IMG/VR virus record: IMGVR_UViG_3300014501_000051
Span: 1 to 33,314 of that record
Length of the DNA: 33,314 bases
Source: a virus
Direction: 5' to 3' (one strand)
The position numbers and the translations under genes are program-made. This document shows, in pieces, positions 1-33,026 of the stretch; position 1 is the stretch's first letter; each line of letters begins with the position of its first letter. The notes beneath the pieces are model-generated. The model saw only the letters and a program-made list of their open reading frames with translations. It searched no databases and was not told the DNA's origin.

Positions 1-287
1 AACCCCGATCAAGGCTAATCAACCCCCCGCCCCGGCGTGCCGGCAAATATCCAAATCCTAAATTCCCCCCCCATTTCATAAAACCCAAACTCCTCCCTCA
101 CCCCCCCTCGTCAGCAACCGCGCATTCAGCATCTTCCTGATCAACATCCTCTTCCCACCCATCCCCCGCAGCGCCTCTTGTTAGCATGCCCCATTAGGGC
201 TGTTCAATCGCGATTTCCCATTTGCGCCATATCGGTTCTATTTCGATTGTTGTGAGAGGCCGGACCCCGTAAATTCCCTCCCGTCCC
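1..287. other. Host flank, no gene recognised
   Basis: This stretch is rich in C runs and contains no convincing open reading frame. A short minus-strand frame with an ATG at 162 ends after roughly 28 codons and could be the tail of a host gene entering from outside, but nothing supports it. The last 41 bases form the promoter of the interrupted host tRNA gene. Confidence 0.5.
247..275 (+). promoter_or_regulatory. Promoter of the host tRNA-Val gene
   Basis: TTGTTG (247..252) and TAAATT (270..275) are separated by 17 bp and lie 12 bp before the tRNA 5' end at 288. The same architecture is found before the phage copy of the tRNA (TTGTGG, 17 bp, TAGATT at 764..736 on the minus strand), and this conservation supports the call. 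Confidence 0.55.
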
Positions 288-326
288 GGGCGGTTAGCTC
301 AGTGGTAGAGCGGCGCCTTTACACGG
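288..326 (+). pseudogene. 5' half of host tRNA-Val(UAC), cut by prophage (attL)
   Basis: The acceptor strand GGGCGGT, the D arm (GCTC ... GAGC) and the 5' side of the anticodon stem-loop (GCGCC, then TTTACAC) are present. The sequence then turns into phage DNA at 327, so no T arm or 3' acceptor strand follows. The matching 3' half is at 31540..31581. The anticodon is TAC (valine). The phage does not restore the missing half at this junction, so the host gene is disrupted. The core TTTACACGG at 318..326 is attL. Confidence 0.9.
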
Positions 327-651
327 GTTACGGTGTGTTTTTTCCCACTTTCACCCATTTATCCACAACTACGCAAGTTGCACAGCTACAAGGCATTCTA
401 GCGGGTTTTGGAAGAATCCATTTTACCCCAAGAATGCCCAAATTTTTTCGTCGGTATAGATTTTGGTATAGACAAATCGGTAGGGGTAGAGCTGGTCGCA
501 TTTGCTTTTAGGTTCCTGAAAGACGCGAAAATGGGGGCCAATTTTGGGCCGGGTGGTATAGACAAATCTCTTGAAAGAAGGCCGAGGGTTGAGCTGGTCG
601 CAGATGCTCATCCGCTCTAGCCGGGGGCGAGAAAAGCACGGGGACAGGGCG
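327..651. other. attL-proximal non-coding region with integrase arm-type repeats
   Basis: No convincing gene is present. The region carries repeats that also occur beside attR. GGTATAGA is found at 453..460, 465..472 and 555..562, each starting the longer unit GGTATAGAY. GAGCTGGTCGCA is found at 489..500 and 591..602, and a relative (GAGCAGGTCG) lies directly before the right core at 31530..31539. The arrangement resembles arm-type and core-type binding sites of a tyrosine integrase and its excisionase. Short open frames here read through the repeats and look non-coding. Confidence 0.6.
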
Positions 652-723
652 TGGGCGGTGAGGGATTTGAACCCCCGAGCAACAGAATGTAAATCTGCCG
701 CTCTACCACTGAGCTAACCGCCC
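652..723 (-). tRNA. Phage-borne tRNA-Val(UAC)
   Basis: A 72-nt cloverleaf is read on the minus strand. It has acceptor GGGCGGT/ACCGCCC with discriminator A, D stem GCTC/GAGC, anticodon stem GCAGA/TCTGT around loop TTTACAT (anticodon TAC, Val), and T arm GGGGG-TTCAAAT-CCCTC. CCA is not encoded. The first 26 or so bases are identical to the interrupted host tRNA-Val and the acceptor and T stems match it closely. The anticodon stem differs, so the attachment core TTTACACGG is not recreated. It carries the same anticodon as the tRNA destroyed by integration and is the likely functional replacement. Confidence 0.92.
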
Positions 724-735
724 GGAGCGGGAGGG

Positions 736-764
736 AATCTACGGGGTACCGTGGCCTCCCACAA
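736..764 (-). promoter_or_regulatory. Promoter of phage tRNA-Val
   Basis: On the minus strand TTGTGG (764..759) and TAGATT (741..736) are 17 bp apart, 12 bp before the tRNA 5' end at 723. Spacing and surrounding bases (GAGGCC ... ACCCCGTA ... TTCCCTCCCG) parallel the host tRNA promoter at 247..275, so the promoter appears to have been carried along with the tRNA. Confidence 0.6.
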
Positions 765-774
765 TCGCAAATTT

Positions 775-987
775 TCAGGGCTGCTGGCAGGCGGTTTTTC
801 TCACGTTCAGGGAGATTTCCCTGATTCTTTCGCTTATAACCACGTCGGCGAACGCTAGGAGCGCCAAGGCGTCAGTATGGCTTGTAAATCTCTCCACAAT
901 CCTCGGCGTGCCGCCCGGGTCTAATTTGAACGCGATGATGCTACCCACACCCTCACGTTTTTCCGTTTCTTGGCTTTCTTCTTTCAT
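775..987 (-). CDS. Small hypothetical protein coupled to the DUF5131 remnant
   Basis: A 70-residue protein of unknown function. The start is taken as the ATG at 987 because it overlaps the TAA stop of the preceding gene as TAATG, a typical coupling arrangement; an ATG at 1011 would add eight residues. The N-terminus is charged (KEESQETEKREG), followed by a compact segment (IIAFKLDPGGTPRIVERF) and a helical region with alternating hydrophobic residues. I see no catalytic motif or membrane segment. It is the last gene of the late transcript before the phage tRNA. Confidence 0.5.
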   Translation of the reverse strand: MKEESQETEKREGVGSIIAFKLDPGGTPRIVERFTSHTDALALLAFADVVISERIREISLNVRKTACQQP

Positions 988-1532
988 TATAATACGGGCA
1001 CGCCATTCCATTCCTTTCCATCTAACACCCTTCCCAGCTTATGAGGGTGCAAGGCGTTATACTGCTTGAAAAAGAATGGGACGCCCGCCTCTTGGCATTG
1101 CTCCCGTATATCTCTCACCCATTCTGGATTCATGGGACGCCATCCAGGGCCACTCTCACCGCCTACAATGATCCAGTTAATTTTATTTCGCCCAAGATAC
1201 TCCCTTAAATCCAACGGACCTAGCAACGGCTCGCACGATAGGAACCGCACGGCACAATCATTAGACAAAAGATGGGGGATTCTCTTCACCGCGTATTCTT
1301 GGCTCTCCACACTCGTTCCAAGCCATACATTAAACGGAATTTCACGGCCACGGTAGAAGCCCGCAATGTTTTCGGGGCGTTTGGTTAAGAGGAGCCAATT
1401 CAGGCGGACAGTCCGGCGGGAGCTACCCCGCATTGCAGAGAGCCTTGGGGTAAAAGAGGCGGACGAGGCAAGGGAGAAACTTGAGATAACCGCTAATAGT
1501 GTCTCGCCACTATTGCTACCCGGAGAGAGCAT
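987..1532 (-). pseudogene. Truncated DUF5131 (phage Gp37/Gp68) protein
   Basis: The C-terminal two thirds match the DUF5131 family (phage Gp37/Gp68) by pattern: LNWLLLTKRPENI, then WLGTSVESQEYAVKRIPHLL, RFLSCEPLLGPLDL, WIIVGGESGPGWRPMNPEWV and QCQEAGVPFFFKQ. Intact members begin with about 100 residues carrying a radical-SAM-like cysteine cluster (WNP..GC...C..CYA). That part is absent: recognisable homology begins at about residue 43 (near 1406), and the preceding 42 residues are low-complexity and look like antisense of another reading frame. The gene therefore seems to have lost its 5' part by recombination. Its stop is coupled to the next gene. The cysteine-cluster activity must be lost. 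Confidence 0.7.
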
Positions 1533-14393: not shown

Positions 14394-15293
14394 TTACTGA
14401 GTTGTCACGATTTGCAAACTCTTCGGGTTGCCAACTGCAACGCCATACATGAACGTATAAACTACATTTCGTTTGCCGAGTGAAAAGTCATACCAATCTC
14501 TCAACTGTATTGAGAGGTTAGAAACGGGGTCTGTGATTATGGTAATATTACCCATGAGTGGAAGACCTAGTGCGCCTGGGTCTTGCGGGAGCCGCGAGAC
14601 AAAGGCCATTGAATCGGGACTGCCGATGATGCCTTGCTGGTACTGGCCGGAGGGCAAAAGTGAATACTCAGTAAAAGGAATACCATTTATTACTGGCACA
14701 TTAGGACCAGCAACGCCGGGGCCTCCCGGAACGAACAAGGTACTAACGAGGCTCGAATCTTGCAGGAGTTGCCCGTAAGCATAGCTATTGAGAACGCCGA
14801 AGCGATTAGTCTTGGGGACATTCCGCGTATTTAGTTGAGTCTCCGCGTTAATTATTGTATTGCGATTGACGCCAGTGAGAGCCTGAGCCGTCACAGGATA
14901 AGTATAATTTCCAGTAGTCCAAAGAGCCGCTATGCCGGACATGACGCCCAAGCCAATCGAATCCGCGATTGATTCAGCGTATTGGTTGAACAGGATGGGA
15001 GAAATCTGGGTCTGTTCCTCGTCATTAATGGAAAACCCGTTGTAAACGTGCTGGTTTAGGGTAACGGTAACATCGGTGGAGTTAAGAGCAGAGGTGACGT
15101 AGCCCGCACTCGCAGAATAGGTCTGCATTGTTCCCACGGTAGGAATTTTCGTAATGATAGAAGCGCCGTAAGGAATTTGCTGGCTGGAAAAATCAGTAGC
15201 AATTTTAGTGATGACGGGATATTTCGCTACTAAGAGAGCCAAACCGCTTTGCGCGATGAGGGTTGGGGTAAGCGTTCCGATGTTATTAGCCAT
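14394..15293 (-). CDS. E: Major capsid protein
   Basis: A 299-residue protein with the composition of an HK97-fold coat subunit, starting MANNIGTLTPTLIAQSGLAL. Features are an N-terminal helix, then IPYGASIITKIP, a long strand-rich region and the segment QLRDWYDFSLGKRNVVYTF near the end. It is followed by a strong terminator and preceded by a scaffold-like gene, the order known for lambda Nu3 and E. The N-terminal start pattern resembles capsid proteins of P22-like families, but I could not test this. TTGACA lies 53 nt upstream (15352..15347), farther than in most other genes. Confidence 0.82.
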   Translation of the reverse strand: MANNIGTLTPTLIAQSGLALLVAKYPVITKIATDFSSQQIPYGASIITKIPTVGTMQTYSASAGYVTSALNSTDVTVTLNQHVYNGFSINDEEQTQISPILFNQYAESIADSIGLGVMSGIAALWTTGNYTYPVTAQALTGVNRNTIINAETQLNTRNVPKTNRFGVLNSYAYGQLLQDSSLVSTLFVPGGPGVAGPNVPVINGIPFTEYSLLPSGQYQQGIIGSPDSMAFVSRLPQDPGALGLPLMGNITIITDPVSNLSIQLRDWYDFSLGKRNVVYTFMYGVAVGNPKSLQIVTTQ

Positions 15294-16703: not shown

Positions 16704-17564
16704 TTAGCCTGTCCCTTCCTTGTCCGTGTCCGCGCCGTCCGCGCCCTGCTCTTCCTCTTGTGCGGGTGTTTCGGTTACTGTTTCACGCACTCCGGGCAGT
16801 AGCGTTGTGCCAGCCGGTAGGGTTCTCAGCCGTGCAATATCGACTTTGTATTTCTTGGCAAGTTCATCAAGGAAAGCTTCTTCCGCCGCGTGCTGTTCTA
16901 CTTCCTTCCGCCAATCCTTGCCCCTGGCACTCCAAAAGCCTTCGTAGTTCCCCATGCTGTTGCCAAGTAGCGAAATCTCAGTATTGCTAATCCTTGTCGG
17001 ATCAATAGTGATTGATTGCGGTTTTGTGAACGAGACTGCCCAAGGTTCATCCCCTACAGGTGCGTCTAGCTTTTTCCCTTTAAGCAGTGACGCTGTAACC
17101 CATAAATAAATCCGGGTAATCGCCCCATCTATAATCATGTTTTGCAGGTGCCCAAAGAAGAAGGCCGCATCTGAGAGGACAAAGCGCACACCCACCCCTG
17201 TTAGCTTGTCCGCGTTTACGAGAAATTCATAAGGTAGGGAGATACTCTGGCATACGTCGCGCAAAAGCATTTCGAGAAATTTGAAGAATCCATCTGTAGA
17301 ACGATTAGAGGCAACCAGATTAACTTTTTCCCCTTGCTCCACGTAGGCAACATTCCCGCCAAATGCCCGTTCCAGGCCGCTATTGGTAGCAACTTTCCCC
17401 GATTGCTCTGGAAGAATAGGATTGCCCAAGCCATCAGAAGGAAAGACTCCGCCTAATATACCCGCGCCCGCCTCGCCTGATTTCTTCTCCACTACTGCCG
17501 CGAGCGATGAATGGACCTTCATGCAACGCTTTTCCAAAACCTGCATATCTTTGAAATCTCTCAT
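16704..17564 (-). pseudogene. B: Portal protein, C-terminal part (frame-broken)
   Basis: This 286-residue frame continues the portal started at 18280..17561. It begins MRDFKDMQVLEKRCMKVH, typical of the central helix of lambda gpB-like portals, and includes FLEMLLRDVCQSISLPYEFL and the wing/crown region, ending in an acidic tail. The same frame is open upstream of its ATG and reads RGIGSFASSLNS, which is the expected portal motif. One frame therefore passes from homologous N-terminal sequence (other frame) to homologous C-terminal sequence with a single base missing near 17595..17602. ATG and TGA overlap (ATGA), so independent translation of this half is possible. Confidence 0.8.
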
Positions 17565-18280
17565 TGAGTTGAGGCTGGATGCAAAAGAGCCAATGCCCCG
17601 GAGTTGCCCACGTTCTTATGCCGCATTAGGTGGATTACATTTGCAGCGTCAATTTTTTGATGAGTGCCACCAAAGTAAACCATGTAGGCAGTCACCTTGC
17701 CGAATGCGTCAACGAAAAGGCCGTCTATGGAATCGTCTCCCGCGTCACCTGAGTTTTTTACGTTCTCAGTCGAAACCAGCATCAATTGCGGGTAATTAGT
17801 AACAGGAGATTTGATTAGGATAATGAAAACTTCTCCCGCTATGACTAACTCCCGAGCGATTATTTTCTGTGCCTCGTAAAAGTTGTATTGGTTGTTTGCG
17901 AAACAAAAGACGTTGCTCGCCCAATTATCAAAAGCGGCTGTATTGGCATCGTTGAAAAGAGGGTCGCTAGTAACTGCATTGGCAATCAGGCCGGAGCCAA
18001 TCGCGTAGGTTTCTACTACTGTTAGAATGCGTTCAAAGAGCGGAGCGTTGTTTACGAGGTAACGTGTGAGACGCGCAATTTCGTTTCTGGTGTAGGCGTT
18101 TGGGTTAACGGTCCCCTCTTGGTCGGCCATCCAGATCAGGCTTCTATCCCGAGTCCATACTGGTGCCTCAAAACCTCCCAAGGACATTAGGGCTTTCTTT
18201 TCCAGGGGCGCGGCTTGCGTGCCGGCCTTGCCTAGCTCCTCATTGAAGAGGCTCCTGAATTTATTGAGAAACTTGGCCAT
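17561..18280 (-). pseudogene. B: Portal protein, N-terminal part (frame-broken)
   Basis: A 239-residue frame with the N-terminal half of a lambda gpB-type portal (dodecameric channel at the head vertex). Visible are TRNEIARLTRYLVNNAPLFE (about 64 to 83), AIGSGLIANAV, QKIIARELVIAGEVFIIL and ANVIHLMRHKNVG at about 213 to 225. After NS at about 227 the frame gives GALALLHPASTQ and stops, whereas the -1 frame gives the expected RGIGSFASSLNS. Combined, the two halves make about 525 residues, near the 533 of lambda. No classic slippery heptamer is seen. Confidence 0.82.
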
Positions 18281-18577: not shown

Positions 18578-20431
18578 CTAATCCCAGCCCACGCCCTGAG
18601 AGTTATTGAGGTGGTATTCCCGTTTAGGTTGTTCTACTGCCGCCGCAGGGAGTTGCCTTGCCGCTTCCTCTGCCGCCATCGCCCGCGCCAATTGTGGGGC
18701 AACTAGGAATTTGAAGGCTTCCAGGTACTTCGCACAATCCCCCATGTGGTTCCGCCGGTTCGTGCATTGCCAGAACGTCTCTAACTTTCCGCTTTTCGTT
18801 TTTTTCTCTACAAGGTGTTCGCTGGTTAGCTGGATTTTAAGTTCATCATCCGTGTCTTGTGGCAGGTAGAGCCTGAGTGAACGCTCCCTGATTCCCGTCA
18901 GGTAGAGTTGGTCCTTGAAATACTTGTCACCAATGAGGATCAAAGGAATATTTGCGCCTTTGAAAAAGGTGGTTGTCTCTCTGACTGGCGCGAAAAGCCC
19001 TTGCCGCTCGTCTCGTCCCACGCATGGCAAAAACCTAAAACCCGTTTTCCTACAAAACTCGTACACTTGGGCCGTGCGGTTCCCACCGGCATCAATAAGA
19101 CTCCTGTAAACCCCTTGCAAATCGCTTGTCCCTCGAATGGGGTATTGCCGCTGGTAGGTCAAAAGCAAATCCTCGAAACTCGCAATTTCACCCCAGTCTA
19201 TTACGTGGCTAGAGCCGTCCCTGAATACCGCCTCCGTTACGAAATAGAATTTGTCCCCCTGCGTATCCGCCGCCATCAGAATTACCTGAGGTTTGGAAAG
19301 AAGCTCTCCTTTGTTGTACTTCGGGCTCTCCGCAATGAGTATATCAATGTTTGCGGTCTTTAGGGTTGTCGCCCGTTGCTGGAAGCACTCGCCTAAATAT
19401 GAGTTATAGAAGTTCCTCAGCTTTCCTACGTCGTCTTTTGAAAGCAGGAAGATTTTTGCCATCCCTCCCCAAGTGATGTTGAAAGAGTAGAGAGCGGAAA
19501 TGTGGTAGCTGCGGGTTTCCACCGGGAACGGGTTGGGGTTCGTGTCCCGCCAGATGCCATTGCGGACCATTCCCACCTTGTCTTGCTCCGTGAGGAGTGC
19601 CTGGCACCCTTCGCACTCATACCGCGTGCTCTGCTCCACCTTGTCTATGTCGTAGGTGCCGTTTTCTAGTTTAGCCGATTCCCATTTCAATTGCTCAAAG
19701 CGTAAAGTCTGCTCGTGCTGGCAATGGGGGCATTGTACGAAATACTTTGATTGGCTCCCCAAGAGGTACTGAGAGTGAACAACGCTCGTGTTCTCAGTGG
19801 TAGGGGTGGATAGGACGATTATCTTTTTGTCATTTGGAAAAGAGATTGTTCTATCCTCTGCCAATTCAAGGGCTGGAGCCTCCCCTATGCTCTCGAAATC
19901 AGATTGCTTGTCTGATTCATCTACGATTACTACCGCCGCCGGGTTGGAAGCTAGTTTTGAGGGACTCCCCGCGCCTATGCACCGCAAGATGCACGAGGAA
20001 AATAGCATCTCAGTCTTTTTGAGATCGTCTTGGTTGCCCGTTAGAAACTTCTTAACCTCCGCGCTGGCGTGTATTGACGGTGTTAGGCTTCTCTCGCAGA
20101 ACTGCTGTGCCGCCTCCTTCGACGGCATAATCATCAAAAGCGGAAAAGTGAAGTTGCAGACGTAGTAAAGGAGGAGGTTGTTTGCTAATTGTGTCGCGCC
20201 AATCTGTGCGGACTTTTTCAAGATGATTTTCCTAACGCGCGGATTCCCTACATCGTCGTAAATCTGTTTGAGGTAGGGCGTGTGCTTTAACCTATAGCGC
20301 CCCGCGAGGTTTGAAGTCTTAGCGTCTAGCCGGATGTACTTCTCAGACCAATCGCTAGGGGGAATTTCCTCTTTGGGCTTAAAGCAACGTGCGAGAATGC
20401 CCGCGATTACTGAAACAACCCTGCTATTCAC
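18578..20431 (-). CDS. A: Terminase large subunit, lambda gpA-like
   Basis: A 617-residue packaging ATPase and nuclease. The N-terminal ATPase has the adenine-binding type start SDWSEKYIRL (about 27), a Walker A-like KKSAQIGATQ (about 72 to 81) and a Walker B AVVIVDESDK (about 165 to 174). Next comes the zinc-ribbon-like pair CPHC / CEGC (about 234 and 275) common in GpA terminases. The nuclease half has LMAADTQGDKFYFV (about 383) and SLIDAGGNRT (about 447). The start is a GTG overlapping the small subunit gene by 8 nt. Lambda-type enzymes usually cut at cos sites. Confidence 0.92.
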   Translation of the reverse strand: MNSRVVSVIAGILARCFKPKEEIPPSDWSEKYIRLDAKTSNLAGRYRLKHTPYLKQIYDDVGNPRVRKIILKKSAQIGATQLANNLLLYYVCNFTFPLLMIMPSKEAAQQFCERSLTPSIHASAEVKKFLTGNQDDLKKTEMLFSSCILRCIGAGSPSKLASNPAAVVIVDESDKQSDFESIGEAPALELAEDRTISFPNDKKIIVLSTPTTENTSVVHSQYLLGSQSKYFVQCPHCQHEQTLRFEQLKWESAKLENGTYDIDKVEQSTRYECEGCQALLTEQDKVGMVRNGIWRDTNPNPFPVETRSYHISALYSFNITWGGMAKIFLLSKDDVGKLRNFYNSYLGECFQQRATTLKTANIDILIAESPKYNKGELLSKPQVILMAADTQGDKFYFVTEAVFRDGSSHVIDWGEIASFEDLLLTYQRQYPIRGTSDLQGVYRSLIDAGGNRTAQVYEFCRKTGFRFLPCVGRDERQGLFAPVRETTTFFKGANIPLILIGDKYFKDQLYLTGIRERSLRLYLPQDTDDELKIQLTSEHLVEKKTKSGKLETFWQCTNRRNHMGDCAKYLEAFKFLVAPQLARAMAAEEAARQLPAAAVEQPKREYHLNNSQGVGWD

Positions 20432-21728: not shown

Positions 21729-22655
21729 ATGATAACTCAAAAAACTGTTCTGATCCTAGGTGCTGGAGCTAGTATTCGTTTCGGTTTTCCGTCAGGCACG
21801 GAGTTAATGCGAGAGATTTTGCAGTACAAACCAGAGAGCGAGAACGTCGATTACTTAACTGCCTGCGGAATCTATCGAAGCGATATCCAGGCTTTTCAGC
21901 GTATTCTGCAAGGTTCGGGAATGCTTTCCATTGACGAATTCTTGGAAGGGAGACGGGACCTGATCCCGATGGGAAAAGCGCTGATTGCTTTAACACTTTC
22001 GAAGCACGAACAAATTGATCGTCTCTTCGATCCGGAAATAAAAGGAAAAAGTTGGTACGATTACCTGTTTACCAAGATGACGATTGGAACGAAGGATATT
22101 AAAGCAAACAGTATTTCGTTCATCACCTATAATTATGACCGCTCTCTTGAGGCATACTTTCACAGGGCTCTAATGAATAGGTTTTCACTCGATGGCCACA
22201 ATGCAGAAATGCAGGTGCGTAATCTTCCGCTAGTTCATATTCATGGCCAACTCGGCAGTATCTTCGATCAGAATACAATTAATTTCTACGCTCCGATAAG
22301 ATCCGGAGGTGACCTTAAGCGTGCGACAAACGGCATAAGTATTATTCACGAGGCTAAAGAGGATTCAAATTTGATTTATGCACGAAGGCTACTCGCAGAA
22401 GCGAAAGTTGTAGCGTTCCTAGGATTTGGATACAATCGATCTAACATGGAGCGCCTACAGCTTGAGAACTGTTCCAGCGCCTCAATCTACGGGACGACTT
22501 TCGGCATGAAAAAGGCGGAAGTTTCGGCTATTGATGACATGTTCGATCCAGTTCGGTTTAACGACCATCCCGGTGATATTCTCGACGCATTGAGGGATTG
22601 GGGAATATTGGAAACTCCTTTTTCCCGGCTGTTCCCGCCTAATCCGACTTCGTAG
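21729..22655 (+). CDS. SIR2-like (NADase-type) protein, candidate defence effector
   Basis: A 308-residue protein with a complete SIR2-type Rossmann core. It has VLILGAGASIRFGFPSG (GAGAS at residues 11 to 15, NAD binding), FITYNYDRSLE (Asn135, equivalent to TQNID of sirtuins) and HIHGQLG (His170/172, catalytic His-Gly motif), then KVVAFLGFGYNRSN near 235. The sirtuin zinc-binding cysteines are missing. Such SIR2 proteins act in bacterial antiviral systems as NAD-degrading effectors. No C-terminal sensor domain is obvious. It overlaps the convergent gene at its 3' end by 17 nt. Its location in a prophage suggests protection of the lysogen from other phages. Confidence 0.82.
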   Translation: MITQKTVLILGAGASIRFGFPSGTELMREILQYKPESENVDYLTACGIYRSDIQAFQRILQGSGMLSIDEFLEGRRDLIPMGKALIALTLSKHEQIDRLFDPEIKGKSWYDYLFTKMTIGTKDIKANSISFITYNYDRSLEAYFHRALMNRFSLDGHNAEMQVRNLPLVHIHGQLGSIFDQNTINFYAPIRSGGDLKRATNGISIIHEAKEDSNLIYARRLLAEAKVVAFLGFGYNRSNMERLQLENCSSASIYGTTFGMKKAEVSAIDDMFDPVRFNDHPGDILDALRDWGILETPFSRLFPPNPTS

Positions 22656-23583
22656 ATTCCTCTACTCCTAAGAGCTTTCTGACTTCGCTTTCCGCAAAAT
22701 GCAGGGAATCGCCAACACGCTTGTAGGCGTCATCTATCCTTTGCAGAAGGTTAGGGTCTTCGCATCCATCAACGGATCGTTCTTTTTTTAAATGACTCAA
22801 GAGAATAGCAGTTTCTGTTGCCGCTTTCCGAATCAAGGCAGCGGAGCCTTCACTAATGTAAACTTTATGCTTATCAAAATATTCGTAAAAATCCCGGATC
22901 TTTAGCCCGAAGTCCTTACTAGCCTCGTGAAATATGGTATTTGTCGAGGTAGTACGGATATTTCCGACGATCCCCACGAGGTCATGGAGCTTCACATTCG
23001 TCTGCTTTATAAATTCAAACCGGTCCCCATGTAATGGGCTCGCGCGTTCATGTGAACGAAAGTCACTCACGGGACTATCGTCTGGGTATTCCGCTTCTAT
23101 GATATATTCGAGTTTCCCGTGCATTTCCTTTTCGAAGAGATTAAAAACTTCTTCGCTTTTATGAGCTTGGGAAGTATAGTAATATTCAAAGCATTGATAG
23201 CTTTTCAGGTCACTCGGAAGAGCATTAAACTCTTGAGTTATGATGATTGTTCCATTTCGCAAAGCATGCCGAATGCCTAACTCATAATAAACATTTGGGC
23301 GACTTCCGGTCAGATCAGCAATCACAATTTCGCTTTGGTCAATATCCCGGACTATCTTCTTGATGAAATTCCCCGGATTGGCTCCGGAGCATTTGCAATC
23401 TATTTTAGCGCCCGAAAACGACTCGACGGCTTTCTTGATCCAGTTTTTGAAAATGAATTTCCATTCTTCTTTCGTAATTTTAACCTTTTTAGCCGCCCTC
23501 TTATGCTCCGTGTCCGAGAAGGGGAGAATCACGAAACACTTTAGGTTCGCCTTTGGCGATGGACTTGCGACGGGCTCACTCAT
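22639..23583 (-). CDS. Nucleoside deoxyribosyltransferase/TIR-like protein, candidate defence component
   Basis: A 314-residue protein. Residues of about 15 to 120 form a Rossmann-like domain: CFVILPFSDTEHKR at the start, then IVIADLTGSRPNVYYELGIRHAL (86 to 108) and GTIIITQEFN. The pattern N-V-Y-Y-E-L-G is shared by nucleoside 2-deoxyribosyltransferases and related TIR-like proteins of immune systems; Glu101 is the candidate nucleophile. Residues of about 180 to 310 are helical with no recognised motif and may sense or bind a partner. It runs opposite to the SIR2-like gene and overlaps it at the ends by 17 nt. Confidence 0.75.
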   Translation of the reverse strand: MSEPVASPSPKANLKCFVILPFSDTEHKRAAKKVKITKEEWKFIFKNWIKKAVESFSGAKIDCKCSGANPGNFIKKIVRDIDQSEIVIADLTGSRPNVYYELGIRHALRNGTIIITQEFNALPSDLKSYQCFEYYYTSQAHKSEEVFNLFEKEMHGKLEYIIEAEYPDDSPVSDFRSHERASPLHGDRFEFIKQTNVKLHDLVGIVGNIRTTSTNTIFHEASKDFGLKIRDFYEYFDKHKVYISEGSAALIRKAATETAILLSHLKKERSVDGCEDPNLLQRIDDAYKRVGDSLHFAESEVRKLLGVEESTKSD

Positions 23584-29635: not shown

Positions 29636-29651
29636 CCCGGATCAATCCGGG
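29636..29651. terminator. Hairpin between convergent genes
   Basis: CCCGGA and TCCGGG pair over a 4-nt loop between the stop codons of the membrane-protein gene and the repressor gene. No T run follows on either strand, so termination efficiency is unknown. Confidence 0.35.
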
Positions 29652-29860
29652 GAATACAAAAGTAGTTCCCCCGGCTCGCATTCCAACACGATGCAGAGCC
29701 GATTGAGGATTTTAAACGGAATCAGTTCTGTTTTTGCATTCTCCAAGAGATTTAGACGCGGGCGGGACAAGCCGATTGCATTCGCCAATTCAAATTGCGC
29801 CATTCCCCGTTCCTTCCTCACCGCCTTGATGTTGATTATAACCATTGGGGAAGGTAGCAC
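29642..29860 (-). CDS. XRE-family repressor (Cro/C1 type)
   Basis: A 72-residue protein, nearly only a helix-turn-helix domain: INIKAVRKERGMAQFELANA, then IGLSRPRLNLLENAKTE and LNRLCIVLECEPGELLLY, the standard five-helix XRE pattern. Two starts are possible, a GTG at 29860 or an ATG at 29845. The GTG has TTGACG 13 nt upstream (29879..29874), close to the recurrent leader motif. The gene is divergent from the excisionase-like gene and probably controls the lysis-lysogeny choice. It lacks a C-terminal cleavage domain, so induction by RecA-type cleavage is unlikely. Confidence 0.8.
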   Translation of the reverse strand: MLPSPMVIINIKAVRKERGMAQFELANAIGLSRPRLNLLENAKTELIPFKILNRLCIVLECEPGELLLYSPD

Positions 29861-30010: not shown

Positions 30011-30367
30011 GTGAACAAGAGCCAAGAAAAGCGGGAGGTAACTTTAACGGAAGCAATGGAGGGGTTTGCGGTGCTGCCCACTGTCCTTTCATCCCTCCAA
30101 GAATTACAAAAGCAGATGAATGACATTCAGGCGGACCTTGCCGCGATCCACAAACAGAATGGAGGGGGAGATGCTCCCTTTACTTGGCAGAAAGCGAGGG
30201 GCAAGCAATTCGTCGGCATCAAGGAAGCGGCCTACCTATTGGATGTTTCAGGTAGCACCGTCAGGCGGCTTTTAGACCGTGGGCTTTTAAAATGCAGTAG
30301 TGCCACCCGTCACAAAAAAATAACCGTTGAGTCCTTAGAGGAATACAGCGGCAAGACAATTATTTAA
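30011..30367 (+). CDS. Excisionase-type HTH protein
   Basis: A 118-residue protein starting with GTG and no Shine-Dalgarno sequence. The N-terminus has a helical, probably coiled part (LSSLQELQKQMNDIQADLAA). Residues of about 67 to 113 have a MerR/HTH_17-type helix-turn-helix: FVGIKEAAYLLDVSGSTVRR, LLDRGLLKCSS and a wing (KKITVESLEEY). Such proteins serve as excisionases or DNA-bending regulators. It ends four bases into the convergent integrase gene, and the GGTATAGA arm repeats near both att sites are its possible targets. Confidence 0.75.
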   Translation: MNKSQEKREVTLTEAMEGFAVLPTVLSSLQELQKQMNDIQADLAAIHKQNGGGDAPFTWQKARGKQFVGIKEAAYLLDVSGSTVRRLLDRGLLKCSSATRHKKITVESLEEYSGKTII

Positions 30368-31479
30368 AGAACTACATCCTTCCTCGGCTCCCGCTTCCCA
30401 CTGAGTAATGCAATCTGTGTTTTCTCGTAGTTTTTCAGGTCATCATCCAGCACCCAGGAATAAGTGCGACGTATCAACACCCCGTTGTCCTTGTGGCCCT
30501 GCCAGCGTGCCAAAGTCTCCGGCTTAATGTCTCTCCGTAACATCCAAACTATCCGGGCCTTCCGTAAATCTCGCGGGCTATACTGTTTAAGGCCAAGCCG
30601 CTTGCATGCGTTCGATAGACCCTTTTTGATACTCCTAATCTTAAAGATTTTTTCCTCGGGATCGGGCTCGCCTTGGCGCACATAGAGGTTGAGCATAAAA
30701 TCTCTGAGGTCCGGGTAAAGCGGGACGGGGAAATAGGCCCCGGTTTTAATCCGCTTACACTGCATGAAACCATCTTCAAATTTTACATCGTTCCAAATGA
30801 GGAAGTCGGCTTCCGCCTCGCCCAATGCGGCAAGGTGGAGAAAGGAAACTTTGTCCGCGCTATCTTCCGCCGTGTCAGAAAACTCTTGCTCACGGATGCT
30901 ACGTGCAATTGCCTCGCATTGCTCAATGGTGGGGACTTCTGCGGGCTTATCCTTCAACCGCAACCGTTTCGTGGAGAGGCGGGTGTAGGGATTTTTTTCA
31001 ATCAACTCATCTTGTATTGCCAAATCGAACATCATCTTAATGAAGAGAGTGAGGGCATTGAAGGTGCGGGGCATCCATGATTTTTCCAGCTTCCCAAGCA
31101 TCTGCGCAAAGTCACTTGGCTTAATCTTATCAATGGGCATATCCATGATGGCCGGGGCCTCCGTCTCAATCGTTTTAAATCGGAAGGTGTAGCTCTTGTG
31201 GGTGGAGCCTGCTTTGCCTCCTTTAGCCTTCAAAAACATTTCATACAACTCCCTGAATGTGGGCATGTCTTTCGCTTCCGGTGCGTCCAGGGAATCAATC
31301 CAGTTGCGCAACGCAGCCTCAGCCAATTTGCGGTCTGTTATCTTGTCGCCGTTCCCCGTCCGCAGAGCCTTATTCAGAATCGTCCCCCTGTGCTTCTTCA
31401 CGCCATAGTAGTTCTTGTTCTGCTCGTGGCGATAGAGGCAGGGAACGCCCGTGGGTTTTAGCTGATTTCGTGTGCTCAT
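30364..31479 (-). CDS. int: Tyrosine integrase
   Basis: A 371-residue integrase. The ATG at 31479 is chosen because further upstream the frame runs through attR and the tRNA half. Catalytic parts: Lys in KRIKTGAYFPV, box II SPRDLRKARIVWMLRRDIK (Arg kept, the usual His is Arg), ARWQGHKDNG (His) and RRTYSWV (Tyr nucleophile). The box I Arg is missing: LAALGEAEADFLIWNDV has Gly where Arg is expected. The same LG.(A/Q)AE pattern is, as far as I recall, normal in a group of verrucomicrobial integrases. It sits 60 bp from the right core and directs integration into tRNA-Val. Confidence 0.92.
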   Translation of the reverse strand: MSTRNQLKPTGVPCLYRHEQNKNYYGVKKHRGTILNKALRTGNGDKITDRKLAEAALRNWIDSLDAPEAKDMPTFRELYEMFLKAKGGKAGSTHKSYTFRFKTIETEAPAIMDMPIDKIKPSDFAQMLGKLEKSWMPRTFNALTLFIKMMFDLAIQDELIEKNPYTRLSTKRLRLKDKPAEVPTIEQCEAIARSIREQEFSDTAEDSADKVSFLHLAALGEAEADFLIWNDVKFEDGFMQCKRIKTGAYFPVPLYPDLRDFMLNLYVRQGEPDPEEKIFKIRSIKKGLSNACKRLGLKQYSPRDLRKARIVWMLRRDIKPETLARWQGHKDNGVLIRRTYSWVLDDDLKNYEKTQIALLSGKREPRKDVVL

Positions 31480-31486
31480 GGCTACG

Positions 31487-31539
31487 GGTATAGACTGGCG
31501 GTATAGATTTTGCAAGTTTTCTCTCGCACGAGCAGGTCG
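31487..31539. promoter_or_regulatory. attR-side integrase arm-type repeats
   Basis: GGTATAGA occurs at 31487..31494 and 31500..31507, the second in the longer GGTATAGATTTTG that also occurs on the left at 453..465. GAGCAGGTCG (31530..31539) directly precedes the core and resembles GAGCTGGTCG on the left. These repeats are also the likely control region of the integrase gene, whose start codon is 8 bp away. Confidence 0.6.
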
Positions 31540-31581
31540 TTTACACGGCGTTGGTCGGGGGTTCGAATCCCTCACCGCCCA
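31540..31581 (+). pseudogene. 3' half of host tRNA-Val(UAC) (attR)
   Basis: It begins with the core TTTACACGG (31540..31548), followed by the 3' anticodon stem and variable loop, T arm GGGGG-TTCGAAT-CCCTC and acceptor ACCGCCC plus discriminator A. With bases 288..326 it makes a full tRNA-Val. CCA is not encoded. No 5' half precedes it inside the prophage, so it is not a functional gene here. Confidence 0.9.
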
Positions 31582-31703: not shown

Positions 31704-33026
31704 ATGCAAGCATCCCCTACCCTCCGGAATGTGGAATCGATCCATCGGGCTTTCAGGCGGCCGTGTTTGTTGGGCACTGCTTTAATCGCGGTGGCGTTGC
31801 AGTCGTGCTCCGCTACGGACCTTTCGATCGTAACGGCAGGAGCGGTGGGTGACGGCAAGACGCTCAATACAAAGGCGATTCAAGGGGCGATCAATCAACT
31901 GGAATCGCAGGGAGGGGGGACGCTCGTCATACCGTCGGGACAATTCCTGACGGGGGCGCTTTTCCTGAAGCCGAAGATTAATGTATCGATAGATGCGGAC
32001 GGAGTTTTGCTCGGGTCCACCAATATCCTCGATTACCCGGAGATGCCGACGCGGATCGAGGGGCACGAGACGGTCTGGATTCCGGCGCTGCTCAATGCTG
32101 CCTGGTGCGACAACCTGGAGATCACCGGGAGCGGGACGATCCAGGGCGGGGGACAGCCATACTGGGACGCGTTCTATAATGCGAGGAAGGTGAGCAGCGC
32201 CACGAAGAACCTGGATGTCAAACGTCCGCGAAACATCTTCATTTCGGATTCAAAGAACGTGCTGCTCAAAGGGATCAAGCTGCGCGGATCGGGTTTTTGG
32301 AATCTGCACCTCTACCGCGACCAGAACGTTACGGTCGAGAGCGTGGACATCCGGGAGCCGCACGCGCCGAGCACGGATGGGATAGATGTGGATAGCTGCC
32401 AGGATGTGACAATCCACGGATGCTATATCTCGGATAATGACGACAACATCGCGGTCAAGGGGAGCAAGGGACCGACGGCCGATACCGATACGACTTCACC
32501 GCCCGACGCCCATATTCATATCTCGGACTGCACGTTTGGCCATGGAAACGGTATCCTGACGCTCGGCAGCGAGGCGACTTATGTCCACGACGTGACGGTG
32601 GATAATTGCAAGATCGAGGGGACGGAAACGAACCACGTCCTGACCGTAAAACTGCGGCCCGATACGCCCCAGCACTACGAGGATATTCACGTCAGCAACA
32701 TCGTGGACAATGCGCCGGGGACGATGATCAACCTCGCGCCGTGGATCCAGTACTTTGACCTCGGCGGGCACGCGCCGCCAACTCAAACGGCGGAAAATAT
32801 CACGATCTCAAACGTGACCGGCAGCACAACCGGCTTTGGCCGGATCGCCGGGCCGGACAAGAGTGTGGTCCGGAATATTACCATCTCGAATGTCGACCTG
32901 AAGGTCAGCAAGCCGGGCGCCGATATTAAAAACGTCCAGGGCTTGAAGCTCGACAACGTGAAACTCAATGGTGTGGCGCTGACGGAGCCGGATCAGGGAG
33001 CGGCAGCGCCATCACCGGCGGATTAG
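31704..33026 (+). CDS. GH28 family glycosidase (polygalacturonase-like), host lipoprotein
   Basis: A 440-residue exported enzyme of the pectin-degrading GH28 type. It has an N-terminal lipoprotein signal (hydrophobic core and LQSC lipobox, Cys near residue 35) and the typical GAVGDGKTLNTKAIQGAI start. A right-handed beta-helix with the GH28 motifs follows: STDGIDVDSCQDV (Ser in place of Asn in NTD), NDDNIAVKG (catalytic Asp pair) and FGHGNGILTLGS (His). The last usual motif (RIK) appears only as KLRP. It is outside the prophage, higher in G+C, and marks the host as a probable plant-polysaccharide user. Confidence 0.85.
   Translation: MQASPTLRNVESIHRAFRRPCLLGTALIAVALQSCSATDLSIVTAGAVGDGKTLNTKAIQGAINQLESQGGGTLVIPSGQFLTGALFLKPKINVSIDADGVLLGSTNILDYPEMPTRIEGHETVWIPALLNAAWCDNLEITGSGTIQGGGQPYWDAFYNARKVSSATKNLDVKRPRNIFISDSKNVLLKGIKLRGSGFWNLHLYRDQNVTVESVDIREPHAPSTDGIDVDSCQDVTIHGCYISDNDDNIAVKGSKGPTADTDTTSPPDAHIHISDCTFGHGNGILTLGSEATYVHDVTVDNCKIEGTETNHVLTVKLRPDTPQHYEDIHVSNIVDNAPGTMINLAPWIQYFDLGGHAPPTQTAENITISNVTGSTTGFGRIAGPDKSVVRNITISNVDLKVSKPGADIKNVQGLKLDNVKLNGVALTEPDQGAAAPSPAD

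Follow-up and report, generated by a model that had tools for sequence, protein, structure and literature searches.

tRNA-dependent lysogeny was described in 2024 in viruses of Mycobacterium and its relatives (Guerrero-Bustamante & Hatfull, PMC10865867), where it is defined by a tyrosine integrase acting on a short core, by the lack of reconstruction of the host tRNA gene, and by a phage tRNA of the same isotype that keeps the lysogens alive (PMC10865867). The authors asked how widespread this mode of lysogeny is beyond actinobacteriophages (PMC10865867). The DNA analysed here, referred to as the window, is a whole IMG/VR entry of 33,314 bp, and the prophage it contains is very probably a temperate tailed phage using tRNA-dependent lysogeny. 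Like the phages Fionnbharth (K4), LeBron (L1), Gaia (X), and BrutonGaster (CQ2), it combines a tyrosine integrase and a short core within a tRNA gene (8–17 bp in those phages) with no reconstruction at either junction, a phage tRNA of the isotype of the broken gene, and an attP flanked by arm-type sites, which in the prophage are putative (PMC10865867). In contrast, the isotypes of the actinobacteriophages are Lys-TTT, Ile2-CAT, and Leu-CAA, whereas that of the prophage is Val-UAC (PMC10865867), and their hosts are actinobacteria, which the host of the prophage probably is not. Likewise, the Fionnbharth tRNA is not closely related to that of its host (PMC10865867), while the prophage tRNA still matches the host gene over the leader and most of the tRNA body. 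Among cases that are proven or predicted, the tRNA-Lys of BrutonGaster lies approximately 0.3 kb from the integrase start, an arrangement like that in the prophage, and the tRNA-Leu of Gaia adjoins the integrase gene. In other hosts, and from sequence evidence only, an unreconstructed tRNA together with a carried cognate tRNA is reported for prophage Lj965 of Lactobacillus johnsonii, and the replacement of host tRNA genes by phage-related sequences for Sinorhizobium meliloti, whose prophages carry tRNAs (cited in PMC10865867; PMC11476347).

The prophage has a size of approximately 31.2 kb and is bounded by two copies of TTTACACGG (318–326 and 31540–31548); the features considered are listed in Table 1. 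Its GC content is 48.0%, compared to 57.1% in the left flank and 57.6% in the right flank, and both flanks, amounting to approximately 2 kb, look like host DNA because they are similar to each other and unlike the prophage in GC content. The structural genes identified with Pfam and PHROG encode the terminase, portal, capsid, and tape measure proteins, and the GpA-type terminase large subunit identifies the element as a tailed phage. The portal protein, a single ORF in the Verrucomicrobia phage P8625, is encoded by two frames in the prophage (16704–18280, minus strand, with a 4-base overlap at 17561–17564) that correspond to consecutive parts of one portal family. A frameshift, a sequencing error, or a true fission are possible explanations, and the prophage may be partly decayed, given this gene in two pieces. 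Additionally, a cargo region contains weak matches to a SIR2-like defence effector (21729–22655, plus strand, 1.2e-6) and to a TIR effector model (22639–23583, minus strand, 3.9e-11). The tRNA module is adjoined by a gene encoding a DUF5131 protein (987–1532, minus strand), which matches the C-terminal part of the family only (98–243 of 243) and is possibly truncated.

Table 1. Coordinates of the features of the prophage and its host flanks in the window.
Feature	Position	Strand	Evidence or relation
Leader/putative promoter of host tRNA-Val, TTGTTG-17-TAAATT	241..287	+	47 bp homologous to phage tRNA leader
Host tRNA-Val(UAC) 5' half (attL), ends in anticodon arm	288..326	+	Joins to 31549-31581 as intact 72-nt tRNA
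attL core TTTACACGG	318..326	+	Exact repeat of 31540-31548
Two putative arm-type integrase sites GGTATAGA	453-460, 465-472	+	Repeat count vs shuffles
Third left-side putative arm-type site GGTATAGA	555..562	+	Repeat count vs shuffles
Complete phage tRNA-Val(UAC), replacement copy	652..723	-	ARAGORN; Rfam RF00005 71.1 bits
Leader/putative promoter of phage tRNA, TTGTGG-17-TAGATT	724..772	-	Homologous to 241-287
Major capsid protein	14394..15293	-	Matches Verrucomicrobia phage P8625 only (two records) in 50,697 phage records
Terminase large subunit, GpA type	18578..20431	-	PHROG 15 8.6e-127; Pfam GpA_ATPase 6.5e-59
Cro/C1-type HTH protein, repressor candidate	29642..29860	-	Pfam HTH_26 4.7e-14
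HTH_17 protein, candidate excisionase (function inferred)	30011..30367	+	Pfam HTH_17 2.4e-6, barely over cut-off
Tyrosine integrase, 371 aa	30364..31479	-	PHROG 1 integrase 2.6e-24; Pfam Phage_int_M over cut-off
Two putative arm-type integrase sites GGTATAGA	31487-31494, 31500-31507	+	Repeat count vs shuffles
attR core TTTACACGG	31540..31548	+	Exact repeat of 318-326
Host tRNA-Val(UAC) 3' half, core included (attR)	31540..31581	+	Flank-joining test
GH28 (glycoside hydrolase family 28) gene, host flank	31704..33026	+	Pfam GH28 2.9e-30

When considering the junctions, the initial annotation had proposed that a host tRNA-Val(UAC) gene is split and restored at neither end of the element, and the analysis bears this out. 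The flanks 288–326 and 31549–31581 joined together form a perfect 72-nt tRNA-Val(tac), so that attB overlaps a host tRNA gene, while ARAGORN detected no tRNA at attL alone and none at attR alone; the intact tRNA that canonical integration with reconstruction leaves at one junction is thus missing from both. The cut falls in a region made up of the anticodon loop and the two opening bases of the 3' stem, and the 9-bp sequence TTTACACGG occurs twice in the whole window, exactly at the two junctions. Identity of the phage ends to the tRNA stops abruptly at this core, and the phage therefore brings neither half of the tRNA.

A pattern scan for 5' halves revealed approximately 20 IMG/VR contigs in which the 5' half of a tRNA-Val(UAC) stops at the same anticodon loop (loci L007, L081, L082, L084, L085, L086, L089, L090, L095, L097, L101, L105, L111, L114, L115, L119, L121, L123, L124, L127, and L128). 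For example, the half in L007 is situated beside an ORF that, by eye, reads like a tyrosine integrase. One record, G293 (IMGVR_UViG_3300006353_000002; L081/L107), has an intact tRNA-Val at one end, and the opposite end has only a 5' half. At least this record is, judged from its sequence, a mirror form of the usual strategy, with the gene restored from the 5' side; the break is at the same loop position as in the prophage, but the gene is restored, whereas the prophage restores neither side. None of the other 5'-half records contained a second tRNA-Val. Because of this and of the intact copy in G293, the lone 5' halves were rejected as further cases of tRNA-dependent lysogeny; they suggest phages that restore tRNA-Val(UAC) from the 5' side, and that the anticodon loop of this tRNA is a recurrent phage target. 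Two observations speak for an element that normally restores its tRNA from one end and whose broken state arose by secondary decay: reconstruction is what most phages integrating into tRNA genes do (PMC10865867), and of these contigs with a 5' half at the same loop, the only one in which both ends are visible, G293, retains an intact copy at one of them. The attP–tRNA identity nevertheless ends after 9 bp and no degenerate half-tRNA adjoins either junction, and we regard secondary decay as very improbable compared to a phage that depends on its own tRNA.

The complete tRNA-Val(UAC) that the initial annotation had placed in inverse orientation within the phage was recovered by both ARAGORN and Rfam; it is the only tRNA that either program found in the whole window and lies approximately 326 bp inside attL. 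Its anticodon is identical to that of the broken gene, and 63 of the 72 positions agree between the phage and host copies. Seven of the nine differences fall in the anticodon arm, a stretch of 17 nt (Fisher p = 3.6e-4), where they comprise three compensatory stem pairs and C38T, giving the phage-specific arm GCAGATTTACATTCTGT. Since the three changes are compensatory pairs, the structure of the anticodon stem is kept. The leaders align from −47 to −1, with none of 10,000 shuffles reaching an equally good alignment, and no similarity between host and phage was found at −107 to −48 or at +1 to +40 past the tRNA, which makes the previously noted match of the leaders real and sharply bounded. The two leaders differ by two 3-nt indels, and the putative promoter hexamers remain 17 bp apart in both copies; these hexamers are weak and were picked by eye, and a strict consensus scan of the leaders called no promoter. 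Both the replacement and its leader derive from a host-type tRNA-Val gene, as had been suggested, and because the homology stops sharply at −47 and at the 3' end of the tRNA, a host tRNA transcription unit appears to have been captured with little else.

Two other explanations of this second tRNA have to be weighed. If the host had further tRNA-Val(UAC) genes, the split would be harmless and the phage copy dispensable. Many fast-growing bacteria carry several copies of this gene, and the record holds only approximately 2 kb of host sequence. All 25 of the 25 genomes with a tRNA-Val(UAC)-type pattern were nevertheless single-copy, in a sample that is distant and probably of another phylum than the host, and the compensatory stem differences suggest that the phage copy has been kept functional; we give this explanation a small chance of being correct. 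Alternatively, the phage tRNA could serve lytic translation by supplementing GUA decoding, its match to the broken tRNA being coincidental. GUA accounts for 26% of the valine codons in the prophage (15.2 per 1000 codons) compared to 9% in the single host gene of the window from which host codon use was taken, and the GC content of the prophage is lower (48% against 57%). However, this is the sole tRNA carried, it has the exact anticodon of the broken gene, is located beside attP, and possesses its own host-like leader rather than lying in a phage tRNA cluster. Coincidence therefore has a low probability, even though a function in lytic translation and one in replacement could coexist.

The core itself is gone from the anticodon arm of the replacement, as the initial annotation had noticed: TTTACACGG has become TTTACATTC, and the six loop positions TTTACA, including the anticodon, are kept. 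The replacement might have been selected to lose the core through the compensatory stem changes, which would leave the lysogen without an intact attB at either copy and exclude both its own integrase and other phages targeting the tRNA-Val(UAC) loop; we regard this only as a tentative and rather unlikely idea. An anticodon stem that differs more than the rest of the tRNA could also result from drift or from acquisition of the tRNA from a related species. The attP core was compared to the phage tRNA in six known phages. The tRNAs of LeBron, Malthus, and BrutonGaster keep only the unavoidable 7-nt loop CTTTTAA of the core, and those of Whirlwind, Clautastrophe, and Faith1 largely keep it, with nine bases. 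Given the latter three, a general rule of core loss was rejected, and such loss is thus common but not required.

Regarding the integrase, the gene abuts attR, and the ORF as called from 31713 reads through attR into host DNA, so the phage start is likely the internal ATG at 31479, 61 bp from the core. Its family is assigned as tyrosine integrase, with a Pfam catalytic-domain score of 24.5, under the cut-off of 27.1, and with two deviating catalytic positions. According to an alignment to one relative, the Javan85 integrase (24% identity), the first catalytic Arg has been substituted, with LGEAE in place of MRIGE (the box reading LGEAEAD), and the His of HxxR is an Arg (RDLR), while GHK and the Tyr region are retained. 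These deviations could stem from a sequencing error, from membership of a divergent subfamily, or from early decay; with an inactive integrase, the replacement would become permanent. Five exact copies of GGTATAGA were found in the window compared to 0.52 expected, and none of 100 shuffles reached five. All of them are located on the phage side of the junctions in the same direction, including two pairs spaced 12–13 bp apart, a layout that resembles the arm-type sites of lambda-like integrases. The attP arm additionally contains an imperfect direct duplication of approximately 50 bp (466–507 and 556–609), with one GGTATAGACAAATC site per copy.

Five of the seven defining features of tRNA-dependent lysogeny could be scored, and all five were found: the attB within a tRNA gene, the tyrosine-family integrase with the deviations mentioned above, the 9-bp core, the absence of a functional tRNA at attL or attR, and the phage tRNA of the same isotype. 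The sequence shows the split gene, its core, the repeats of arm type, and an intact second tRNA. These are consistent with a mechanism in which the integrase would recombine attP with the host tRNA-Val(UAC) gene at the 9-bp core of its anticodon loop. With neither tRNA half present in attP, integration would destroy the host gene at both ends. The phage tRNA, located approximately 0.33 kb from the core behind its own host-derived promoter region, would be expected to keep the lysogen alive, the host gene being presumably essential or single-copy and the phage copy presumably expressed, charged, and required, as the two further defining features would have it. If the prophage were excised precisely, the host gene would be whole again.

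The identity of the host was addressed through comparisons to known phages and genomes. The capsid protein showed 26% identity over 98% of its length to that of P8625, its sole match among 50,697 phage records, and the gene order of the two phages agrees in outline, making a Verrucomicrobiota host an unproven but better guess than Armatimonadota. Among the sequences searched, the tRNA body was closest to Armatimonadota genes; an Armatimonadota host is unsupported, the best matches in 291 genomes covering the tRNA and not the leader. At a threshold of E 1e-15, the integrase had no match in these 291 genomes, and the exact 72-nt host tRNA did not occur in genome_contigs, where a looser pattern of the tRNA matched two Chthonomonas genomes only. 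In viral_contigs, searches with the integrase, the terminase (as single sequence and two-sequence profile), GH28, and the leader pattern retrieved no close relatives.

What is new compared to the described cases is an isotype of valine, a host that is probably not an actinobacterium, and a compact attP–tRNA module with a recognisably captured leader. Judged by sequence, the prophage is a clear case with an isotype new to this kind of lysogeny and with a host that probably belongs to another phylum, and it bears on the question of how far tRNA-dependent lysogeny has spread outside actinobacteriophages. It also points to a likely origin of the replacement, the capture of a host tRNA and its leader as one unit, and gives a testable function for the single tRNA genes carried by temperate phages.
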